A stretch of 10,013 nucleotides of DNA from Desulfuromonas sp. SDB (GTDB taxonomy: Bacteria > SDB-A), in the NCBI GenBank assembly GCA_001412365.1, contig LKUE01000321.1, positions 1 to 10,013 on the forward strand, written 5' to 3'. Numbering within the stretch: position 1 is the stretch's first letter; every line of letters begins with the position of its first letter. The notes under the pieces were generated by a model, which saw nothing but the letters and a program-made list of their open reading frames with translations, had not been told where the DNA came from and did no database searches. Below, piece after piece: positions 176-9,964 of the stretch. The position numbers and the translations under genes are program-made.

Positions 176-604
176 TTACTTAGAATCGAAAGTTCCGTGA
201 TACCATTCATAACCGTTGACATACACGTAGAAGTCATAAACTCCGGTATAATCAACATCGAATTCCCATTTTTGGATCATGTAATCATCTGTGGAGTCAA
301 AATAAAATTCATCTGACCACCAGTCATCACCATTAGCATCATTAATTCTGAATTGACATACAAAATCGTTGTCAACTTCATCCCAACTGAATACTAAGGT
401 TGCTTGAGTATCATAAACATAGCCGCCGTCGCAGTCATTTTCCAAAAGCCAGTCATCGTCAGCTTCTACATCATCCATTCCCCCTTCAATTACGAAAAGG
501 GCAGCCCAGTCAAAATTAACTTCATCGGAATGGCTGGTGGGAGCAGCATATAATGATCCAAGCACAAATCCTAAAACTGACAGCACTATAATTGCTTTTT
601 TCAC
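176..604 (-). CDS. Small secreted acidic protein, possible FnIII/Ig-like fold
   Basis: This encodes a 142-residue protein that I do not recognise as a named family. It starts at a GTG preceded by AGGAGG at a good distance. Residues 1-20 form a classic Sec signal peptide (two lysines, a hydrophobic core, then SLYA-A), so the mature protein of about 120 residues should be exported. There is no lipobox cysteine, membrane anchor or sorting tail. The mature part is very acidic, rich in Asp, and has seven Trp and many Tyr. Its only two cysteines, C58 and C83, could form a disulfide. An FSWDEVD segment (72-78) and a final TGVYDFYVYVNG segment (120-131) look like strands of a small beta-sandwich, and resemble the first domain of the lipoprotein at 6315-7340. 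It is transcribed alone, divergently from scpB, and ends in its own terminator. A role in binding metal, carbohydrate or the cell surface is possible but unproven. Confidence 0.85.
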   Translation of the reverse strand: MKKAIIVLSVLGFVLGSLYAAPTSHSDEVNFDWAALFVIEGGMDDVEADDDWLLENDCDGGYVYDTQATLVFSWDEVDNDFVCQFRINDANGDDWWSDEFYFDSTDDYMIQKWEFDVDYTGVYDFYVYVNGYEWYHGTFDSK

Positions 605-762: not shown

Positions 763-1401
763 ATGGATTTTGAAATCTTGCAGGAATTTGAGAAAAATGA
801 ATATTTTGAATTAGCCAAAAAGATCGAAGCATTGTTAATTGCAGCAGGAGAGCCGATTTCATTAGGAAAAATAAAGGGAATTTTAAAAGATCCTACTGTA
901 AAGGAAATCAAGTATGCCCTGGAAATATTAAATGCTTTTTATGACCAGACCAAAAGGTCATTCCATATTTTAGAAATAGCCGGAGGATATCAAATTTACA
1001 CCCGACCGGAGCACAGTGAGAATATCAGCAAGCTTTTCAATATCCGGGAAAGCAAGTTAACTCAATCTGCTCTGGAAACTGCTGCAATTGTAGCCTATAA
1101 ACAGCCCACCACTAAATCGGAAATTGAAGAAATTAGGGGAGTATCCTCAGATAGTCCGTTGAAAACACTTATGGATAGGAATTTAATTAAGATAACCGGT
1201 AGGGGAGAAGGTCCGGGAAGACCGGTGCTGTATGGAACCACCAATGAATTTTTAAGATATTTTCAATTGAACTCTCTTTCTCAGCTTCCTCCTATGGAAG
1301 AGATATCCCTGTTCAATTATGATCAATTGAACAGTGAAGATTATTCCGAAGATACCCAGGATGAAGCCTCACCTCAACCCCCACCGGAAAATGATGAATA
1401 A
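763..1401 (+). CDS. scpB: Segregation and condensation protein B (ScpB)
   Basis: ScpB is the kite subunit of the bacterial SMC-ScpA-ScpB condensin, which compacts and helps segregate newly replicated chromosomes in the cytoplasm. The 212-residue product has the family's two winged-helix domains. The first covers roughly residues 12-85 (IEALLIAAGEPIS near the start, GGYQIYTRPE at 74-83). The second covers roughly 99-170 and carries the family hallmark: ALETAAIVAYKQP at 103-115, IEEIRGVSSDSPL at 121-133, then GRGEGPGRPVLYGTT at 146-160 and NSLSQLPP. The last 35 residues are an acidic, Pro-rich, probably disordered tail, as is common in ScpB. It is the first gene of a four-gene operon and overlaps the next by 11 bases. 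The usual partner gene scpA is not directly upstream: the preceding gene is divergent. ScpA must be elsewhere. Confidence 0.96.
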   Translation: MDFEILQEFEKNEYFELAKKIEALLIAAGEPISLGKIKGILKDPTVKEIKYALEILNAFYDQTKRSFHILEIAGGYQIYTRPEHSENISKLFNIRESKLTQSALETAAIVAYKQPTTKSEIEEIRGVSSDSPLKTLMDRNLIKITGRGEGPGRPVLYGTTNEFLRYFQLNSLSQLPPMEEISLFNYDQLNSEDYSEDTQDEASPQPPPENDE

Positions 1402-2071
1402 TATAATTAAAACTACTCCTAAACTTGGTTATGACCGATATTTAATTAAAACCGACCTGGTCACTGAAAAAAATACTGTTGAAGAAGTGGTGAGTAAATA
1501 TGGGGGGTCTTTTATTGAAAACGGAGATATTTTAGTATTGGCGGAAAGTGTGGTGGCTATAAGTCAGGGCAGGGCAATTCCGGTAGACAAAATAAAAATT
1601 TCTGTTCTTGCCAAAATTTTATGGAGATTTGTTACCAGGAATCCCAGCGGAATTGGTTTGAGAAGTCCCACCAGTATGCAGTGTGCAATTGACGAGTCAG
1701 GGGGATTGAGAATTGTTATTGCTGCAATTTTCGGTGGAATAACCAAATTATTCGGAAAAAGCGGAATATTTTATAGAATTGCCGGAATGCAGGCAGCTAC
1801 TATTGATGCCGCCTTCACCTCTCCAGTGGAGCCTTATGATAAATGTGTAATAAAAGGACCTAAAAATCCAAATAAAGTAGCTTCTGATATTGCTGCCAGA
1901 TTTAATATCCAGGCTGCAGTTATGGACATCAACGATATAGGCGGTTCCTGGGTCCTGGGGGCAAGTAACGATGTGGACCGGGAGTTGCTCAGCAGGATAA
2001 TGCTGGATAATCCCATGGGGCAGGGAAAACAGATGACCCCCTTATGCCTACTCCGAAAAAAAAGAACCTGA
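1391..2071 (+). CDS. F420_ligase-family protein (CofE/FolC2-like, COG1478)
   Basis: The 226-residue product resembles the family of coenzyme F420-0:gamma-glutamyl ligase, which adds glutamate to F420-0 using GTP. Family-like features are NGDILVLAESVVAISQGR (44-61, the GD-I-V-K/S-V-S-x-GR region of CofE) and a C-terminal block VDRELLSRIMLDNPMGQGKQ at 195-214. The central part (84-143: NPSGIGLRSP, AIDESGG, GIFYRIAG) matches a divergent bacterial branch rather than true archaeal or actinobacterial CofE. Some members of this superfamily (FolC2 in Chlamydiae) instead add glutamate to folate, so F420 synthesis should not be assumed; no other F420 gene is seen here. The start is ATG 1391 or the adjacent ATG 1394, with only a weak GGA upstream; the overlap with the end of scpB suggests translational coupling. 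Longer in-frame starts from 1334 lie inside scpB and add only basic, non-family sequence. Confidence 0.82.
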   Translation: MMNNIIKTTPKLGYDRYLIKTDLVTEKNTVEEVVSKYGGSFIENGDILVLAESVVAISQGRAIPVDKIKISVLAKILWRFVTRNPSGIGLRSPTSMQCAIDESGGLRIVIAAIFGGITKLFGKSGIFYRIAGMQAATIDAAFTSPVEPYDKCVIKGPKNPNKVASDIAARFNIQAAVMDINDIGGSWVLGASNDVDRELLSRIMLDNPMGQGKQMTPLCLLRKKRT

Positions 2072-3098: not shown

Positions 3099-4973
3099 TT
3101 AGCGGATTTCTATACTGTGGGTCTGGATCCGGGTTTTAATATTTCTGGCTAAACTATCCCTTGGCTCCAGACCGGTGATAATATCAACCAAAGGTATCAA
3201 AGAGCTGTCTAAAATTCCCTGATTGTACTGTGCTTCCCTGAATACTATTCTCCACACTCCCTGTTTAACATAATCAGTTACCATTTTCACCCGGACATGA
3301 TGATGGTAAAGAGCAGCGGGAACTTCATCAAAATTTACTTTTTTCCACTGTTCCCTCTCTCTGTTTAAATCCGCAGGGGTTAAACCGACTGCATCGGTAA
3401 ACATAAAACCATAGGGAATTAGATTTTCCGGAATCCAATAAGCTAAATCCAGGTCGGGATAATCGGTATACATCCTGGAGGAGGGTCGGGAAACAAAAAT
3501 CCCCCCCCTGGATTGACCATATTTTATTATGGAAAAAATTAAGTTCTGAAAGCCGGCTTGAAGCTTGTTAATATCCACAGGTTGGTTGTTCTCCCAGGCT
3601 TCCAGTTGCCCTAAGTAATCGGCAATTTCAACTGCCCAAAATTCAGCTAATTCCGGGTTTTGGCGGTTTAATGCTTGTACATACCAGGACCTTCTCAACA
3701 GTTCCTTGTCTATGACCAGAATATCCGGGCGAAAATTTTCAACCAGCTGCAGGTACAGCATCGGAGATACCTCGTCCCAGGACATAGATCCGGGAGCATT
3801 TACCAGGTATACTGACGATTCGGGGAGAAAGCTGAGAATTGATTTTGGATACTGATAACTTAAACGAAAATCATGTTTATCATTGCGGGGAAAATAAAAG
3901 ATCAGAGGGATTAAAACCATGGATAGACAAATCCAGGAAAAGTGACGGAATGAGAATTTTTGACCTAACCAGTGCACCCCGTATCCGCTGGTTACCGCCA
4001 GTGCCACCACTGATGGTATTAAGTAACTGGCAATATCGGGTATCTTGTAAAGAGAGGTGTAGGCTAGGTTGAAAATAATCAGGATGAGTAGAATGACAAA
4101 ATTTCTGCGCTGATTTTGATAAAGATTTAAAAATCCAAAAATTGAAAATAAAGCCAGAGGTAAAAATAAGTTTCCCAGTAAAAGGGAAAGTAAATTTTTT
4201 AAATTTGTAAATATCCCGGTCAGTCCGTCTGAGAACATCCATACATGGTATTGTTTTCCGGACACATGCCATAAAAAGTAGTTAAATCCCCGGTTAATGC
4301 CGCCCCAGTTTAAAGGAGGAGATAGAGAAGATCGAATAATTATAACCAGGTAAGGGGATAATCCCAGGAAAAACAAAGCCATTGCCAAGATAATATTTCT
4401 CCGATTACCTTCTTTCCGGTATTGCCATAATTTCCAGATGAATATTGGAAATACTGCTCCGATTACCAGCAGGTGATTGGTCAACAACAAACCAGCCAGG
4501 TAGAATATTATCAGAAAAGATTTCCCATGGTTGGAAAGAGCTAAAAGTAAAAATAATCCAAGTAAAAATGCGGATAATGAGTATACTTCAGTTTCAGTGG
4601 CAATATCCCATACTACCGGATGAAAGGCAAAACATAAGCCGGCAAAAAAAGCGGGAAAATATCCTGTACTCTTCCTGACCAAAAGCATTATTGAAACTGC
4701 TCCCGCACTGGCAAAGAGGGCAGAAAGAAGGTTGGAGGTAAATGCTGGATTAAGAGGTGAAAGTATTTGGAAAAATCTGGATATCAATATGTACAGCGGA
4801 TATCCGGTGGGATGAGGTATGCTCAGGGTTAGTCCGCACACAGTCAATTCACCGGCATCAATGAACATAACTGTTCTGGCGGTAGTCAGAAAATAAATGA
4901 ACAGTATAATCAAACCGGTTAATACTACCGGTAAAAATGAATACTTGTTTTTAATTATGTTAAAAATTTTCAT
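3099..4973 (-). CDS. DUF2723/TMEM260-like GT-C membrane glycosyltransferase
   Basis: The 624-residue integral membrane protein has the hallmarks of DUF2723: a first membrane helix (about 13-31), FIDAGEL (37-43) with the acidic pair D39/E42 expected in the first outer loop of GT-C enzymes, HPTGYPLY (54-61), WDIATETEVYSL (122-133), TNHLL (165-169), NWGG..FLWHVSG..Y (222-242), and a run of further hydrophobic helices to about residue 361. The soluble C-terminal part, probably periplasmic, keeps the family block MLYLQLVENFRPDILVID (405-422) and SWYVQAL. The human relative TMEM260 is a protein O-mannosyltransferase; for bacterial members the acceptor is mostly unknown. The start ATG overlaps the end of the upstream GT2 gene by 14 bases and lacks its own ribosome binding site, so the two are probably made together. 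The GT2 enzyme is a plausible source of its lipid-linked sugar donor, presumably in the inner membrane. Confidence 0.85.
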   Translation of the reverse strand: MKIFNIIKNKYSFLPVVLTGLIILFIYFLTTARTVMFIDAGELTVCGLTLSIPHPTGYPLYILISRFFQILSPLNPAFTSNLLSALFASAGAVSIMLLVRKSTGYFPAFFAGLCFAFHPVVWDIATETEVYSLSAFLLGLFLLLALSNHGKSFLIIFYLAGLLLTNHLLVIGAVFPIFIWKLWQYRKEGNRRNIILAMALFFLGLSPYLVIIIRSSLSPPLNWGGINRGFNYFLWHVSGKQYHVWMFSDGLTGIFTNLKNLLSLLLGNLFLPLALFSIFGFLNLYQNQRRNFVILLILIIFNLAYTSLYKIPDIASYLIPSVVALAVTSGYGVHWLGQKFSFRHFSWICLSMVLIPLIFYFPRNDKHDFRLSYQYPKSILSFLPESSVYLVNAPGSMSWDEVSPMLYLQLVENFRPDILVIDKELLRRSWYVQALNRQNPELAEFWAVEIADYLGQLEAWENNQPVDINKLQAGFQNLIFSIIKYGQSRGGIFVSRPSSRMYTDYPDLDLAYWIPENLIPYGFMFTDAVGLTPADLNREREQWKKVNFDEVPAALYHHHVRVKMVTDYVKQGVWRIVFREAQYNQGILDSSLIPLVDIITGLEPRDSLARNIKTRIQTHSIEIR

Positions 4974-6096
4974 AGATGGCAGAGTTTATGTTTTGAATCA
5001 GTGACTTTATCATTTTACATTCAATATTTCCAGAATTTTTGAAAATTTGTGATTTTTCATTATGATGTTTTAGACGGGGGAAACTGAACTTAATTTCATC
5101 GGGCGATACTTCGGCAGTTGCCAGAAAATTGGAAAAATGTAAATAATTTTCCATTAGCAAATTCAAATCATACGGTTTTAGAAAATAAATATTTTTTCCG
5201 GTTAAATCTTGAGATTCATCATTATAATAAAAACTGATCAAATTGAAATTATCTTTTAGACCTTCGGTAAATATCTGTCCCCACCTGGATAAGTGGAAGG
5301 GGCAAACTAAAAAAATTTGTTTGAGGTTTTTGTGGAAGGAAGAGGATTTGATAATCCAATTAAACCGGTAATATTTTTTGTTACTGGTTGTACTGGAGGA
5401 AATAATTTCAGAAAACAAATTTAAAAATAGTTTTATCAGTTTAAAAAAACTGTACTTGGAATAATCATCTTTGCGGGAATAATGAGGGGTGGGAATTTCT
5501 TTAATGCTATAACCTAATTTTAGTGCCAGCACCGGAACAAAGGCGGATTTTTTCTGATGATTGAGTATATTTTTCACTGCATCGTATCTGTATGCTTTTA
5601 GCATGCTTCCGATATCATGGATATTTTCATTGAAAAACTTGGACAGGAATAAGTTCAGGATAAATGAATAAATCCTTCGTAGCGGTAAATCATCCCTGTT
5701 TTTTCTCCATCCGGATAAGATCATATCCTCAGGCTGAATATTTCGGATTAACATATTTATTGCCCGGGGAGGAGATTGGAGATCAGCATCGCAAGTGATA
5801 ATAAATTTTCCTGAAGCCTGGCTCATACCTGCCAGCACCGCTTGATGTTGACCAAAATTTTCCGATAATTTGATGACGGTCAGGGGAAATTTAGTACAGC
5901 GGATTTTTTCAAGCAGAATTTTTAAAGTTTCATCTTTACTGCCGTCATCAATATATATCAATTCAAAAGCTGAGGATTGTTTTTCCATAAATTTTGACAG
6001 ACGGTAATGGTTTTTGTTAATAGTTGCCTGCTCATTGAAAACTGGTATGACCATACTGAACTCAATTTTTTTATTTATGTTTATATGATATTGCAT
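4960..6096 (-). CDS. GT2 glycosyltransferase, DPM1/ArnC-like, with novel C-terminal region
   Basis: The 378-residue protein has a GT-A catalytic domain at about 10-230 of the type that moves a sugar from a nucleotide donor to polyprenyl (dolichyl or undecaprenyl) phosphate at the cytoplasmic face of the membrane. Visible motifs are MVIPVFNE (15-22), IDDGSKDET (49-57), ENFGQHQAVLAG (79-90), the metal-binding DADLQSPP (103-110), RRIYSFILN, GSMLKAYRYD (163-172) and YSKYSFFKLIKL (212-223). These closely follow ArnC and GtrB-like enzymes. Those usually end in two membrane helices; here residues 235-378 are instead soluble, rich in Asn, Phe and Lys, and unrecognised. The start ATG at 6096 has no evident ribosome binding site. 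It is the first gene of a two-gene unit with the DUF2723 protein, which suggests donor synthesis feeding protein or polymer glycosylation. Which sugar it uses cannot be told from sequence. Confidence 0.88.
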   Translation of the reverse strand: MQYHININKKIEFSMVIPVFNEQATINKNHYRLSKFMEKQSSAFELIYIDDGSKDETLKILLEKIRCTKFPLTVIKLSENFGQHQAVLAGMSQASGKFIITCDADLQSPPRAINMLIRNIQPEDMILSGWRKNRDDLPLRRIYSFILNLFLSKFFNENIHDIGSMLKAYRYDAVKNILNHQKKSAFVPVLALKLGYSIKEIPTPHYSRKDDYSKYSFFKLIKLFLNLFSEIISSSTTSNKKYYRFNWIIKSSSFHKNLKQIFLVCPFHLSRWGQIFTEGLKDNFNLISFYYNDESQDLTGKNIYFLKPYDLNLLMENYLHFSNFLATAEVSPDEIKFSFPRLKHHNEKSQIFKNSGNIECKMIKSLIQNINSAIYENF

Positions 6097-6134
6097 AAAT
6101 TGATAATAACAGCAGGATTAAATCCAAGTACAAT

Positions 6135-6162
6135 ATTTTAAAATAAATCTGTTGATATGCAA
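6135..6162 (-). promoter_or_regulatory. Candidate promoter of the GT2-DUF2723 unit
   Basis: On the minus strand a TTGCAT (-35, plus-strand 6157-6162) is followed after 16 bases by TAAAAT (-10, plus-strand 6135-6140, five of six matches to TATAAT). Transcription would begin about 30 bases upstream of the ATG at 6096. The -35 matches only three of six positions, and the base composition makes chance matches likely. Confidence 0.3.
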
Positions 6163-6193
6163 ACAAAGATAAGGGTTAAAGATATTATTTTTA

Positions 6194-6222
6194 TTGACTT
6201 TAACAACCTTTATTGATAAGTT
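6194..6222 (+). promoter_or_regulatory. Candidate promoter of the lipoprotein operon
   Basis: TTGACT at 6194-6199 matches five of six -35 positions. At a 17-base spacing the -10 would be TAAGTT (6217-6222), only a three of six match. It lies about 90 bases upstream of the first lipoprotein start. The good -35 and the position support it; the poor -10 does not. Confidence 0.28.
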
Positions 6223-6300
6223 AATTAGCAGTACAAGGAATTTTTTAGAATTCTGTATGGAATGATATGAAATAGTTTGTGCTTATCCTATTTATTACGG

Positions 6301-6307
6301 AAGGAGG
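6301..6307 (+). promoter_or_regulatory. Ribosome binding site that fixes the first lipoprotein start
   Basis: AAGGAGG lies seven bases upstream of ATG 6315. The open frame reaches back to a GTG at 6279, but this strong site would then be inside the gene, and the extra 12 residues would sit in front of the signal peptide's basic N-region. ATG 6315 is therefore preferred. Confidence 0.85.
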
Positions 6308-6314
6308 GAACGCG

Positions 6315-7340
6315 ATGATAAAAAAAGCACGAACGATGCATGTATTAATATTTATAATTTTTATTTCTGCTTCAATTTTCGTTGGCTGTTCAACTATACC
6401 TTTAGAAGAGGGTAGTCAGGCAGAGGTAGAAATCGAGGTTACCTATAACCTTATTGCAGAGGGAACTAGTGCTGATGGACTGGGGATTAGATTTTCCTGG
6501 GATCAAATTGACGGTGCTAGATTGTATCGTTTGTTATTTGATGTAAACGGTACCACTTTAGTGGATACTGTTTTCGCTGCATTTGAAGTGGATAGTGCTG
6601 GAGACACTGCCTATAATAATTTTTTCGTTCACGAAAATATAACCCAGTTGGGAGATTATAAGGTCCAGTTCTCTACATCCAGCTCAGGAGGATCATGGCA
6701 AAATATTGATTCAGCATCCACTGTAACTGAATCCGGAGCATCATATCTGGTTTCTTATGACTGTGCTGGTCCTTTTGCCATGTATTGGGATACAGCTGGT
6801 TTTGAGATAATCGGCAGAGAAAATATGTCTTTGCATTCAGTAGCCGAAATATATCTCTATGATCCCTGTGATTCTGCTTGGAGAATTGATACCACCTTGT
6901 TTGTAATTGACACTACGGTAACTGCCATTGACACAACCATTGTTATTGATACACTGGTTGTTCCACCTGAAACTACTGTTGTAATAGACACTACTTTTGC
7001 CTATGACACCACCATTACCGAAGACAGCGCTACCGCCTTTATACAATTCAATACCGGAATAACTCCTCCACTACTGGGAGCAAATCAATCAGGCGTAGTC
7101 AACGCCGGCACTGATAGTACTTGGTCTAATTTAACTGTAGCACGGTTAGGAGATGAATACGGTACTTCCGCACTAATATCTCTCAATGACATCTTTTGGC
7201 TGCAGAGTTCTGATGGAAGATATATGAAGTTGAGAATTGACAGTATGTACATTGCTCCGGTTACCAGTGATCTTGACACTGCTATTGTCTATTTTACCTA
7301 CCGCTATCAATTAATTCCTAATTTTAGATATGTATATTAA
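6315..7340 (+). CDS. FnIII-like lipoprotein with Asp-Thr-Thr repeat tract
   Basis: This 341-residue protein belongs to no named family I recognise. Residues 1-24 form a lipoprotein signal peptide (basic N-region, hydrophobic core, lipobox FVGC) with lipidated Cys25, so the mature protein should be anchored to an envelope membrane. Residues 44-121 look like an FnIII/Ig-type sandwich: IRFSWDQIDGARLYRLLFDV at 58-77, closing with LGDYKVQFSTSSSG (112-125). Residues 126-190 contain Cys150 and Cys185, perhaps a disulfide. Residues 191-233 are a low-complexity tract of [I/V/Y]-D-T-T units, and 240-341 a further beta-rich region ending in alternating Tyr/Phe strands. Every one of its 16 Asp-Ser/Thr pairs is followed by A, I, L, V, M or T, matching the Bacteroidetes O-glycosylation sequon. 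It heads a three-lipoprotein operon with tight spacing (12 bases to the next ATG). A structural or carbohydrate-related envelope role is likely, but the function is unknown. Confidence 0.85.
   Translation: MIKKARTMHVLIFIIFISASIFVGCSTIPLEEGSQAEVEIEVTYNLIAEGTSADGLGIRFSWDQIDGARLYRLLFDVNGTTLVDTVFAAFEVDSAGDTAYNNFFVHENITQLGDYKVQFSTSSSGGSWQNIDSASTVTESGASYLVSYDCAGPFAMYWDTAGFEIIGRENMSLHSVAEIYLYDPCDSAWRIDTTLFVIDTTVTAIDTTIVIDTLVVPPETTVVIDTTFAYDTTITEDSATAFIQFNTGITPPLLGANQSGVVNAGTDSTWSNLTVARLGDEYGTSALISLNDIFWLQSSDGRYMKLRIDSMYIAPVTSDLDTAIVYFTYRYQLIPNFRYVY
6885..7013 (+). repeat. Asp-Thr-Thr protein repeat tract in the first lipoprotein
   Basis: This encodes residues 191-233, with six D-T-T/L units (Asp at 192, 199, 206, 212, 225, 231) spaced 6-7 residues apart except for one 13-residue gap, each preceded by Ile or Tyr. 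The codons vary between copies (GAT or GAC; ACC, ACT, ACA or ACG), so this is a repeat kept at protein level rather than a recent DNA duplication. It probably forms an extended linker or stalk between the N- and C-terminal beta domains and contains closely spaced Thr residues suited to O-glycosylation. Confidence 0.8.
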
Positions 7341-7352
7341 AGGAGGATTTAA

Positions 7353-8351
7353 ATGGTAATAAGTAAAACCAGGATAATTATTTCGATAATTGCCATATTT
7401 GCAGTCTTCCTTGCCGGTTGCTCAAAAAAACCATCTGATCCGGATATTTCTGATTCAGTAGCTCCATTCATTAATCAAGATGATTCAACTACTGCAGGAA
7501 TTACAACCGGTATTGCAGGTATTGAGTTCACTGGGAATACCATTAATGTATATTTAAGCGTTAAAAGTACCGAAAATTTTCCAGTGGACAGTCTTTGGGC
7601 TGGGAACTTTGACATAAGCGAAATTTACGATAATGGTCAAGGAGGTTTAGATACAGTTGACCTGATTTATGAAGATTTAGCTGTAACTAAACACATATTC
7701 TCAGACAATTCCAATGTTTCCATAATTTTACTTAAGAGTAATTCCAGCACTGTATCTGCATATGGCACAAATATGAATACTGGCATGAAATTGGTAGCCA
7801 ATGAAAAAAGAGCTGCTGATTCTTTGGCAGTTTTAGCTTTCCATAGTTACGATACCCTGCTCACTGATTTCACCAGAAACATCGCTCTGATTGAAGGAGC
7901 TATTGATGAACCAGATTATTGGGGAAGAAGTTGTCAGTTTAGAGCATTGTACCGGGCCATTGATGAATTGATGGATCAAACGGGAAGAAAAGGAATCATC
8001 GTATTCGGAGATGGATTGAACAATGAAGACCCCCGTGAACAAAATGCGGTAATTGACAGCTTAGTCAATTGTAACATTCCAGTGTACTTTGTAGTTTACG
8101 GTGATACCCCTGATACCAATTGTTTGGAAACTATATGTAATCAAACTGGCGGATTTTATACCTACTACCGTACTTCCGCTTCGATGTGGGCAATGATGGA
8201 TGATATCAGAAACAATTACGACTTGTACAAGATCAGCTGGACCAGAAGAACTCCTTCCGGCAGAAGAGGTATTATTGATATTTCCACCCAGTATCAGAGT
8301 GCAATTGGAATTTCATCAAGCACAGCACTTTATTATTTTGAGGCTCCTTAA
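7353..8351 (+). CDS. VWFA-related domain lipoprotein with degraded MIDAS
   Basis: The 332-residue protein has a clear lipoprotein signal (lipobox FLAGC, lipidated Cys23). Residues 55-110 match the small beta domain that precedes the VWA fold in bacterial VWFA-related proteins (TIGR03436-like): FPVDSLWAGNFDISEIYDNG at 76-95. The VWA fold spans about 120-295: SIILLK strand (123-128), LAVLAFHSYDTLLTDFT (158-174), RALYRAIDEL (197-206), GRKGIIVFGDGLNNED (211-226), PVYFVVYG, CNQTGGFY (262-269) and a closing YKISW (292-296). VWA domains usually bind a metal through D-x-S-x-S; here the equivalent positions read K128-x-N130-x-S132, so the site has lost its key Asp, while Asp220 of the third loop remains. 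It is therefore more likely a protein-binding scaffold than a classic metal-dependent adhesin. AGGAGG at 7341-7346 supports the ATG at 7353. Second gene of the lipoprotein operon. Confidence 0.9.
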   Translation: MVISKTRIIISIIAIFAVFLAGCSKKPSDPDISDSVAPFINQDDSTTAGITTGIAGIEFTGNTINVYLSVKSTENFPVDSLWAGNFDISEIYDNGQGGLDTVDLIYEDLAVTKHIFSDNSNVSIILLKSNSSTVSAYGTNMNTGMKLVANEKRAADSLAVLAFHSYDTLLTDFTRNIALIEGAIDEPDYWGRSCQFRALYRAIDELMDQTGRKGIIVFGDGLNNEDPREQNAVIDSLVNCNIPVYFVVYGDTPDTNCLETICNQTGGFYTYYRTSASMWAMMDDIRNNYDLYKISWTRRTPSGRRGIIDISTQYQSAIGISSSTALYYFEAP

Positions 8352-8365
8352 AAAGGAGGATATGA

Positions 8366-9964
8366 ATGAGATTTAAACTTTCTTTGATATTCTATATTCT
8401 AGTTGCAACGGTAGCTTTTATCTGGTTTGGGTGTTCCACTGCTCCTGAAGGTCCCGAGCCGACAAATAAAGCGCCTGAAACTTATATAGCAAATGTCCCC
8501 CCGGTAGGTGATACTATTCCAGCAGTTACTTTAGTATACTGGTATGGTGTTGACGATGACGGATTTATTGCTTATTACGAATGGGCTCATACAGCTGACT
8601 CAGTGGATCCAAATCAGATCACCGATTGGGATTCAATTGCGGCAACTGATGATACCATGGCTTTAACCGTTGATGATGTTGATCCCTCTATTATTGTAAT
8701 TGACACCTTAATTGACACTACCGTTGTGGGTATTGATACTTTTATAGATTCGACCTTCACTTATTTTTTCACCGGTTATTTCTATGTACGGGCATACGAT
8801 AATGAAGGTGCGGTTGATCCTACTCCAGCGTGGAGAGGATGGAATGTATACAGTGTGAAACCCAGAATTGAGATCACTGCGCCGGATGCATCATCAGGTA
8901 TGCTCAGTCATTATTTAGCCACTGATCCAATATTTTTCCCCAAAGGAGATACTCCAACTGTATTTATACTTGATGATACTACTGCCCTGTGGAAGGGGGT
9001 AGAAGTGTGGTGGAACCGGGCAGATACCTTGAATCAAGAGGGCAATGATCCTATCGGCTACCGGTTTAGAATTGATAATGAAAACTGGAGTAATTGGACT
9101 GATGAAGATCCTGCTACTGCCGGTGATTCCTATATATACTTCACCGGACCAATAGCTGATGGAATGCACACTTTCCATCTCCAGGGAAGAAATGCCTCCC
9201 ATATTGAGAGTAGAATTGATTCAATGTGCTTTTATGCGGTAAATCCCAATATTGATGACGGTAAGATAATAATTGCTCTGGCTTCCGGATTGACCTACAA
9301 CCTAAATCAGTTCTGGTATGATACCTTGATGATGAAAGTAAGACCTAATGCTGACTATGAAATACTGAACCGCGAATTCACCCAGCCAATGTTCACCCAT
9401 CAGGATTTGCAGGGAGTTAGTCTAATAATTTATATTAAAGATGATATGACTACCTCTGATCCTGGAATCAAAAAGGATTCTTTGATTTTATGGAACTATA
9501 CCAATGTGGGCGGAAAAGTTTGGATCTTCGGTTTAAAGATGCTCAATGTTCTGGAGCCAACTATGATTGGAACCCAGTTAATTGAAGAAAGATTCGGTAT
9601 AGAATTTTTTGGCATATCTAATACTAAAACCCTTAGGGGTGTCTATCCCTGCTGGCAGGCTCCAAATTACAACTTGCCCTCAGACACCTTGCTAGTAGAT
9701 GAAGATCATGCTTTCCCCTCGGATACAATGTTATCTTTATGTGAGAACTACAGGTCATCCGATCCCAATGTAGAGGTAATCTATCATTGGTTCGGAAACA
9801 CTCCCTGGAATGAAACTCCGGTAGGAATAACTCATCTGGATACCCAAAGAGATATTCAGATAGCTTTATTCGGATTCTCAGGATACTGTATGCATTGGGA
9901 TAGTTTAAGTTATGAACCGATTGCAACCATCTACGATGAAATGCTAACCTGGTTCGGATTGTAA
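8366..9964 (+). CDS. Multidomain lipoprotein: Ig-like N-terminus, Rossmann-like C-terminus
   Basis: This 532-residue protein starts at ATG 8366, six bases after AGGAGG (8354-8359). The signal peptide ends in lipobox WFGC with Cys23. A short Pro-rich linker leads to NKAPETYI (34-41) and YWYGVDDDGFIAYYEW (58-73), a pattern seen in Ig-like domains of large exported proteins of FCB and candidate-phylum bacteria. An Asp-Thr tract sits at 112-130. A second beta-sandwich region spans about 166-292, including GYRFRIDNENWSNW (231-244) and DGMHTFHLQGRN (265-276). Residues 298-532 look like an alpha/beta domain: GKIIIALASG (299-308), VSLIIYIKDD (351-360) and LWNYTNVGGKVWIFG (375-389), the last like the YV-x-x-GG-x-LW-x-x-G segment of glutamine-amidotransferase-like or ThuA-like folds; I see no catalytic Cys-His pair. 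Last gene of the lipoprotein operon, 14 bases after the VWFA gene. Envelope role likely, substrate unknown. Confidence 0.85.
   Translation: MRFKLSLIFYILVATVAFIWFGCSTAPEGPEPTNKAPETYIANVPPVGDTIPAVTLVYWYGVDDDGFIAYYEWAHTADSVDPNQITDWDSIAATDDTMALTVDDVDPSIIVIDTLIDTTVVGIDTFIDSTFTYFFTGYFYVRAYDNEGAVDPTPAWRGWNVYSVKPRIEITAPDASSGMLSHYLATDPIFFPKGDTPTVFILDDTTALWKGVEVWWNRADTLNQEGNDPIGYRFRIDNENWSNWTDEDPATAGDSYIYFTGPIADGMHTFHLQGRNASHIESRIDSMCFYAVNPNIDDGKIIIALASGLTYNLNQFWYDTLMMKVRPNADYEILNREFTQPMFTHQDLQGVSLIIYIKDDMTTSDPGIKKDSLILWNYTNVGGKVWIFGLKMLNVLEPTMIGTQLIEERFGIEFFGISNTKTLRGVYPCWQAPNYNLPSDTLLVDEDHAFPSDTMLSLCENYRSSDPNVEVIYHWFGNTPWNETPVGITHLDTQRDIQIALFGFSGYCMHWDSLSYEPIATIYDEMLTWFGL
8699..8755 (+). repeat. Second Asp-Thr repeat tract, in the third lipoprotein
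   Basis: This encodes residues 112-130, with four I-D-(T/S)-x units (Asp at 113, 117, 124, 128). It is the same style as the tract in the first lipoprotein of the operon, though shorter and set within, not between, the predicted N-terminal beta domain. Copies differ in codon use, so the repeat is not a recent DNA expansion. Confidence 0.65.

Follow-up and report, generated by a model that had tools for sequence, protein, structure and literature searches.

Does a pair of glycosyltransferase genes modify the sequon-rich lipoproteins encoded beside it? A preliminary description of the 10,013-nucleotide stretch of contig LKUE01000321.1 analyzed here (the window) had proposed such a protein O-glycosylation locus, with machinery and substrates on either side of one intergenic region. 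General O-glycosylation in Bacteroidota (the LFG system of B. fragilis) acts on the sequon D-S/T-A/I/L/V/M/T and has mannose as the reducing-end sugar (PMC12871550). Its core OTase was still undiscovered as of a 2025 review, which advised a search for homologues of eukaryotic O-mannosylation enzymes, noted that an LFG-like locus (metG, wzx flippase, glycosyltransferases) is not conserved in all Bacteroidota, and placed sequon enrichment mainly in Bacteroidota and the sister phylum Fibrobacterota (PMC12871550). The window comes from a separate, little-known, uncultured bacterial phylum. Four of its genomes were compared: the window genome (G000), a sister genome of another genus that carries the orthologous cluster (G001), and two more sister genomes, G002 and G003.

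Table 1. Features of the candidate locus, in window coordinates.
Feature	Position	Strand	Basis
TMEM260-like (PF11028/DUF2723, CAZy GT117-type) GT-C transferase, 624 aa	3099..4973	-	Pfam, phmmer, motifs, fold
GT2, ArnC/DPM1 type, 378 aa	4960..6096	-	PF00535, ArnC/PgfS models, structures
Divergent intergenic region	6097..6314		alignment with G001
LP1, lipoprotein, 341 aa, 16 sequons	6315..7340	+	counts, density rank, G001 alignment
LP2, lipoprotein, weak von Willebrand A similarity, 332 aa, 7 sequons	7353..8351	+	profile match, counts
LP3, lipoprotein, 532 aa, 15 sequons	8366..9964	+	counts, density rank

A recount of D-(S/T)-(A/I/L/V/M/T) gave exactly the numbers described previously, with 16, 7, and 15 sequons in LP1, LP2, and LP3, respectively (38 in total). 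The seven remaining proteins of the window hold three, one each in the small secreted protein, S20, and the DUF2723 protein, and none is present in ScpB, the F420_ligase-like protein, RluB, or GT2. All 16 D-S/T pairs of LP1 are sequons, and LP2 and LP3 contain 9 and 19 such pairs, respectively. Composition-preserving shuffles predicted 2.4 sequons for LP1 (p 0.0002), about 2.0 for LP2 (1.95; p 0.002), and 2.8 for LP3 (p 0.0002), and control motifs were rare in the three proteins together (Glu 2, Asn 1, reversed 7). One linker of LP1 (AWRIDTTLFVIDTT...TEDSATAF) holds about 7 of its 16 sequons. The sequon density of LP1 and LP3 exceeded that of all 79 sampled exported proteins of the window genome, with LP2 ranking third, and LP1 and LP3 likewise occupied ranks 1 and 2 among 66 exported proteins of G001. 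A distant relative of LP1 in G002 contains no sequon.

Selection for the D-(S/T)-hydrophobic sequon in exported proteins extends across the genome. In 81 exported proteins of the window genome, Asp preceded Ser/Thr-hydrophobic 229 times versus 89 expected (z 15), and an unbiased scan identified Asp as the only residue enriched at this position (2.58-fold, with the next-best residue at 1.12). Immediately after Asp, Ser and Thr were enriched 2.91- and 2.11-fold, respectively (next-best residue, 1.45), and the order of preference at +1 was L, V, I, A, C, T, F, M, S. The excess of Asp was confined to -1, with no enrichment at -3, -2, +2, or +3, and Glu did not substitute for Asp (E[ST]hy 0.69 versus D[ST]hy 2.58). 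The preliminary description had named a lack of enrichment in exported proteins as an outcome that would count against it. Exported proteins were enriched and cytoplasmic proteins of the same genome were not (207 versus 187); for Asp over Glu, the difference between the two compartments gave p 2e-13. Three sister genomes repeated the enrichment (z 10), and the signature was also detected in WOR-3 in pooled loci. Retention of individual sites between G000 and G001 was in the expected direction, at 23/34 for sequon Asp versus 35/67 for other Asp and 25/35 versus 88/159 for Ser/Thr, an effect too weak to be used as evidence of selection on single sequons.

The family assignments made earlier for both glycosyltransferases held. 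The GT-C protein matched PF11028 (E 1e-20; 74.5 bits versus a curated cut-off of 24.2), the Pfam family formerly called DUF2723 and now named TMEM260-like. A phmmer search aligned it with the human TMEM260 structure 9rql over about 415 residues (E 5e-16), and a family profile matched it at 2e-65. Its D39-x-G-E42 and H54-P-T-G-Y-P59 motifs are kept in at least 97% of 77 relatives. The AlphaFold model (pLDDT 91) has a predicted GT-C fold, for which the best matches were Pmt1-Pmt2 (Z 27), Pmt4 (26.5), and ArnT (25.6). TMEM260 itself was absent among the Foldseek/VIA matches for this model; its relationship to the window protein rests on sequence. With an intact active-site motif, the protein is a candidate periplasm-facing protein O-glycosyltransferase.

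The GT2 gene overlaps the downstream TMEM260-like gene by 14 nt, and its product matched PF00535 (E 1e-24). Its domain is nearest to those of polyprenyl-phosphate-sugar synthases: it matched the ArnC and PgfS models at 9e-46 and 4e-30, both under the equivalog cut-off, and the structures of ArnC (9bhc, E 3e-38) and of dolichol-phosphate mannose synthase (5mlz, 3e-12). Given a score of 156 bits against a cut-off of 529, it is related to ArnC but is not ArnC proper (undecaprenyl-phosphate 4-deoxy-4-formamido-L-arabinose transferase). We regard it as a candidate polyprenyl-phosphate-sugar synthase. Hydropathy analysis revealed no COOH-terminal membrane segment in the window GT2 and one in the G001 orthologue.

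On the lipoprotein side of the intergenic region, alignment with G001 revealed a TTGACT (about 6194-6199), N17, TAAGTT (about 6217-6222) arrangement upstream of LP1 that is kept between the two genera, as well as a conserved ribosome binding site, GGAAGGAGGGAA, at about 6299-6310. The latter favors ATG 6315 as the start of LP1, with GTG 6279 as an alternative. A generic scan of the region yielded no more promoters than expected by chance, so that the promoter-like element is inferred from its conservation. The common control region proposed earlier amounts only to a shared intergenic stretch. For LP3, AlphaFold modeling from two sequences gave a pLDDT of 32, and no relatives were found in viral contigs.

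Conservation of the neighborhood, put forward previously as a check, was borne out between two genera of the lineage and not in the other TMEM260-like loci surveyed. The whole cluster is also present in G001 at 42-47% identity, whereas among 80 other TMEM260-like loci a GT2 neighbor was found at only 1, and exported genes were no more common near the TMEM260-like gene than farther away (93/411 versus 98/441). This survey rules out a lipoprotein neighborhood as a general trait of TMEM260-like genes. G002 and G003 lack the glycosyltransferase pair yet show enrichment (1.90 and 2.42, respectively). They cannot serve as natural knock-outs, and the lack of the pair is uninformative, because ScpB, RluB, S20, and flanking genes are missing there as well; in these genomes the region probably escaped assembly or binning. 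Among 14 named control genomes, PF11028 was found solely in Bacteroides ihuae. Ten PF11028-positive genomes gave a pooled but heterogeneous enrichment of 1.51, compared with 1.11 for PF11028-negative genomes, and little or no enrichment was apparent in the small samples from the positive genomes G027 (0.92), G047 (0.91), and G028 (1.11). As a predictor of sequon enrichment, the presence of a TMEM260-like gene is heterogeneous, confounded by phylogeny, and suggestive at most.

It is plausible that general O-glycosylation of the Bacteroidota type operates in this lineage, outside Bacteroidota itself, with the window pair as its putative initiating mannosyltransferase module. The reading that we tentatively prefer is that the pair performs general sequon O-glycosylation. 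Ser/Thr in D-(S/T)-(L/V/I/A/T) of exported proteins would be glycosylated after export. The ArnC/DPM1-like GT2 would load a single sugar, most likely mannose, onto undecaprenyl phosphate at the cytoplasmic side, the lipid-linked sugar would then be flipped, and the TMEM260-like enzyme would move it to sequon Ser/Thr in the periplasm via its D39-x-G-E42 site. The divergently transcribed LP1 to LP3 would be among the main substrates. The link between machinery and substrates drawn in the preliminary description is in part upheld by the protein families, the top sequon density of the lipoproteins, and conservation in two genera; it is weakened by the proteome-wide extent of the enrichment, by PF11028-positive genomes without enrichment, and by the GT2 pairing at 1 of 80 loci. 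Also counting against the preferred reading are the other candidate transferases of the genome, the window GT2 having no predicted COOH-terminal membrane segment where the G001 orthologue has one, and the sequon-free LP1 relative in G002. Given that the whole exported proteome is enriched, the position of sequon-rich lipoproteins beside a glycosyltransferase is insufficient to tie the two together.

A transferase encoded elsewhere, such as a Wzy_C/PglL-like O-OTase or another TMEM260-like paralogue, might instead glycosylate the sequons, with the window pair decorating a different acceptor (for example lipid A, a glycan of the envelope, or an outer glycan residue) in the manner of ArnC-ArnT. 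We consider this possible, if less probable. The window genome encodes three Wzy_C proteins (two in each sister genome), two further PF11028 genes and one fragment, and PMT_2 proteins; in addition, the GT2 is nearest to ArnC, the GT-C model also resembles ArnT, and PF11028 does not predict enrichment. The sequence family, however, is that of TMEM260, a protein O-mannosyltransferase, the best fold match is Pmt1-Pmt2, and in two genera the lipoproteins with the highest sequon density lie opposite the pair.

That the pair is instead a dedicated modifier of LP1 to LP3, with another enzyme responsible for general sequon glycosylation, would fit the joint occurrence of the five genes in two genera and the lack of this arrangement around other TMEM260-like genes. 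The three lipoproteins nevertheless carry the type of sequon that is found throughout the exported proteome, and G002 and G003 do not bear on the matter, so that we judge this unlikely. Least probable is that exported beta-rich proteins or repeat linkers favor the motif for structural reasons unrelated to glycosylation and that the gene order is coincidental. Although LP1 and LP3 do contain repetitive VIDTT-type linkers, the excess depends on Asp at precisely -1, Glu and Asn being no substitutes, and it is absent from exported proteins of E. coli (54 versus 46) and of genomes without PF11028 (z 0.8). It also persisted when the ten proteins with the highest sequon density were left out (165 versus 77), and LP1 without its linker retained 9 sequons versus 1.4 expected.

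The inferred system shares with that of Bacteroidota the sequon, the exclusion of Glu, the restriction to exported proteins, and a similar +1 preference whose order is close to that published (PMC12871550). It differs in its occurrence in a separate small phylum (and WOR-3 in pooled loci) and in a TMEM260-like/GT2 module that the Bacteroidota system as described does not have. Human TMEM260 (GT117) has the same D-x-G-E and HPxGYP motifs, but its substrates are the IPT domains of plexins, cMET, and RON (PMC11292533), whereas the putative acceptors here are sequon proteins. The presumed division of labor is that of ArnC-ArnT, although the window GT-C belongs to PF11028 and ArnT modifies lipid A. 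The window GT2 also resembles PgfS, a membrane glycosyltransferase from the streptococcal Pgf pathway of protein O-glycosylation.

These findings add an uncultured lineage of phylum rank to those with the sequon signature, and they offer, as a candidate first-sugar enzyme, one homologue of a human O-mannosyltransferase that is directly testable in tractable Bacteroides or Flavobacterium. A broader proposal, which we regard as doubtful, casts TMEM260-like enzymes, supplied by ArnC/DPM1-like synthases, as the transferases still missing for the initiation of sequon-directed O-glycosylation in Bacteroidota and related FCB phyla alike. Sequon O-mannosylation in bacteria and TMEM260 O-mannosylation in humans would then have a common origin, and this locus would be a rare case of joint encoding of donor synthase, transferase, and favored substrates. 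In a contig scan, relatives of the transferase were found in WOR-3, Stahlbacteria, Ignavibacteria, and others.

We recounted the sequon D-(S/T)-(A/I/L/V/M/T), the general O-glycosylation motif of Bacteroidota, in the proteins of the window, and the hand counts of the preliminary description, including three matches in the seven proteins other than the lipoproteins LP1 to LP3, proved exact. About seven of the sixteen sequons of LP1 lie in a repetitive linker, without which the protein retains nine versus 1.4 expected. This linker, a VIDTT-type repeat with several extra sequons, is mostly absent from LP1 of G001, a genome of the same phylum and another genus, so that linker expansion can raise sequon number.

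Positions of window features and sequon counts of the lipoproteins, with counts in composition-preserving shuffles
Feature	Positions	Strand	Sequons	Sequons in shuffles
Small secreted protein	176-604	-		
F420_ligase-like protein	1334-2071	+		
TMEM260-like GT-C transferase	3099-4973	-		
GT2	4960-6096	-		
C-terminal part of GT2, a 150-residue soluble-looking extension	4960-5404			
LP1	6315-7340	+	16	2.4
LP1 linker	6880-7030			
LP2	7353-8351	+	7	1.95
LP3	8366-9964	+	15	2.8

The source genome is a 3.14-Mb draft of 433 contigs (estimated contamination, 3.9%), with the window being one complete contig of 10,013 bases. A query capped at 400 genomes yielded four from its phylum, so that, by the database taxonomy used, the source belongs neither to Bacteroidota nor to another large phylum. 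For gene calling, a simple script relying on open frames and on signal-peptide and lipobox rules was applied to about 0.5 Mb, approximately one sixth of the genome, with both calls and localization being heuristic. In a motif scan that did not favor the sequon, Asp was the sole residue enriched before [ST]-hydrophobic in 81 exported proteins (229 versus 89 expected, 2.58-fold; 1.12 for the runner-up), only Ser (2.91) and Thr (2.11) were clearly enriched between Asp and the hydrophobic residue, and the preference at +1 descended in the order L, V, I, A, C, T, F, M, S. The Asp excess was confined to position -1 (2.49, versus 0.98 to 1.24 at -3, -2, +2, and +3). Shuffling yielded a z of 15.3 for exported proteins, the ratio for cytoplasmic proteins was 1.11, and the Asp/Glu contrast between the two classes had a p of 2e-13; with the ten densest proteins left out, 165 sequons were still found versus 77 expected. 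The three sister genomes showed the same enrichment (z 10.2), and none was apparent in genomes without PF11028 (the TMEM260-like family, formerly DUF2723; z 0.8) or in E. coli (54 versus 46 expected), the control samples from other phyla being small. The enrichment in exported proteins on which the preliminary description had made its reading depend was thus borne out: the sequon is real and selected, characterizes the exported proteome and not specifically the window locus, and represents a Bacteroidota-type sequon under genome-wide selection outside Bacteroidota. These sequons very probably carry glycans.

The profile is in agreement with the sequon described from glycoproteomics of Bacteroidota, the phylum in which enrichment has mainly been reported, with Fibrobacterota mentioned as similar (PMC12871550). 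Pooled loci of Bacteroidetes, Ignavibacteria, and Kapabacteria, analyzed as a positive control, gave a z of 10.0. WOR-3 is another lineage outside Bacteroidota with this excess (67 versus 34 in exported proteins of the pooled WOR-3/Stahlbacteria loci L168 to L226; z 6.1).

The locus is still special, in degree. LP1 and LP3 exceeded all 79 sampled exported proteins of their own genome in sequon density, with LP2 ranking third, and among 66 exported proteins of G001 they ranked first and second, with LP2 seventeenth. The cluster is conserved in the two genera, with G001 keeping the whole arrangement of LP3-LP2-LP1 divergent from GT2 and the TMEM260-like gene, flanked by S20, RluB, the F420_ligase-like gene, and ScpB; the five cluster genes are 42-47% identical. 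Given gaps of only 12 and 14 nt between the lipoprotein genes and a 14-nt overlap of the GT2 and transferase genes, each side looks like an operon. Comparison with G001 also revealed a conserved ribosome site and TTGACT-N17-TAANTT element upstream of LP1.

Pfam assigned the two enzymes to the families named in the preliminary description, PF00535 for GT2 and PF11028 for the GT-C protein. The latter is a homologue of human TMEM260 (phmmer, 5e-16; profile, 2e-65; structure, 9rql), a CAZy GT117 enzyme that O-mannosylates IPT domains (PMC11292533), and has intact D39-x-G-E42 and HPTGYP motifs, which are kept in nearly all of 77 relatives. Its AlphaFold model was confident (pLDDT 91), and the best solved structural neighbors of the model were Pmt1-Pmt2 (Z 27.0), Pmt4 (26.5), ArnT (25.6), and STT3 (25); scores this similar indicate tied families of one predicted fold, which alone does not give the acceptor. 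GT2 was nearest to ArnC and PgfS, scoring under the ArnC equivalog cut-off; the G001 orthologue carries, in place of the extension, a short hydrophobic C-terminal segment.

The pair fits the two-step logic of ArnC-ArnT or of Dol-P-Man synthase and PMT, in which GT2 would load one sugar onto polyprenyl phosphate and the GT-C enzyme would move it to an acceptor on the opposite membrane face. We slightly favor the view that the pair makes a lipid-linked sugar and transfers it to protein, and more tentatively suggest that LP1 to LP3 might be its substrates. In Bacteroidota, the first sugar of the O-glycan is a hexose, usually mannose, and a review that describes the OTase and core machinery as unidentified suggests that homologues of the O-mannosylation system of eukaryotes be sought (PMC12871550).

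Several results argue against a tight link between enzyme and substrate. Among 80 other TMEM260-like loci, a GT2 gene was a neighbor in one, and exported genes were equally common near and far from the TMEM260-like gene. Sequon ratios in ten PF11028-positive genomes of other phyla were heterogeneous, ranging from 0.9 to 3.9 (the sample of one genome contained no exported protein), so that PF11028 is not sufficient, and the source genome contains further PF11028, Wzy_C, and PMT_2 genes. The sister genomes G002 and G003 keep the enrichment and lack the locus. Both (94% and 100% completeness) are also without S20, ScpB, and RluB; given that S20 is nearly universal, the absence probably reflects a shared assembly or binning gap rather than real loss. 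The preliminary description survived most of the refutation tests that it had set: the enrichment held, and the expected neighborhood was conserved locally, in G001, and not generally. Its interpretation as a glycosylation locus is supported in part.

In the phylum of G056, a genome from outside the source phylum, PF11028 was present in 97 of 98 genomes, including those of 0.8-1.0 Mb, and was nearly always single-copy, a pattern suggestive of an important conserved role; the only member sampled had a sequon ratio of 2.1 (14 versus 7). The F420_ligase-like protein, encoded between ScpB and RluB, is 64% identical in G001 and scored well under the CofE equivalog cut-off. The small secreted protein, rich in Asp and Trp and with no family match, shares 72% identity with a protein encoded on another G001 contig (C55), a higher level of conservation than that of the five genes of the cluster. 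All four genomes of the phylum share a second TMEM260-like paralogue with WEDS at the active-site position (loci L002, on contig C14 of the source genome, L014, L015, and L107), which adjoins similar genes where the flanks were read.
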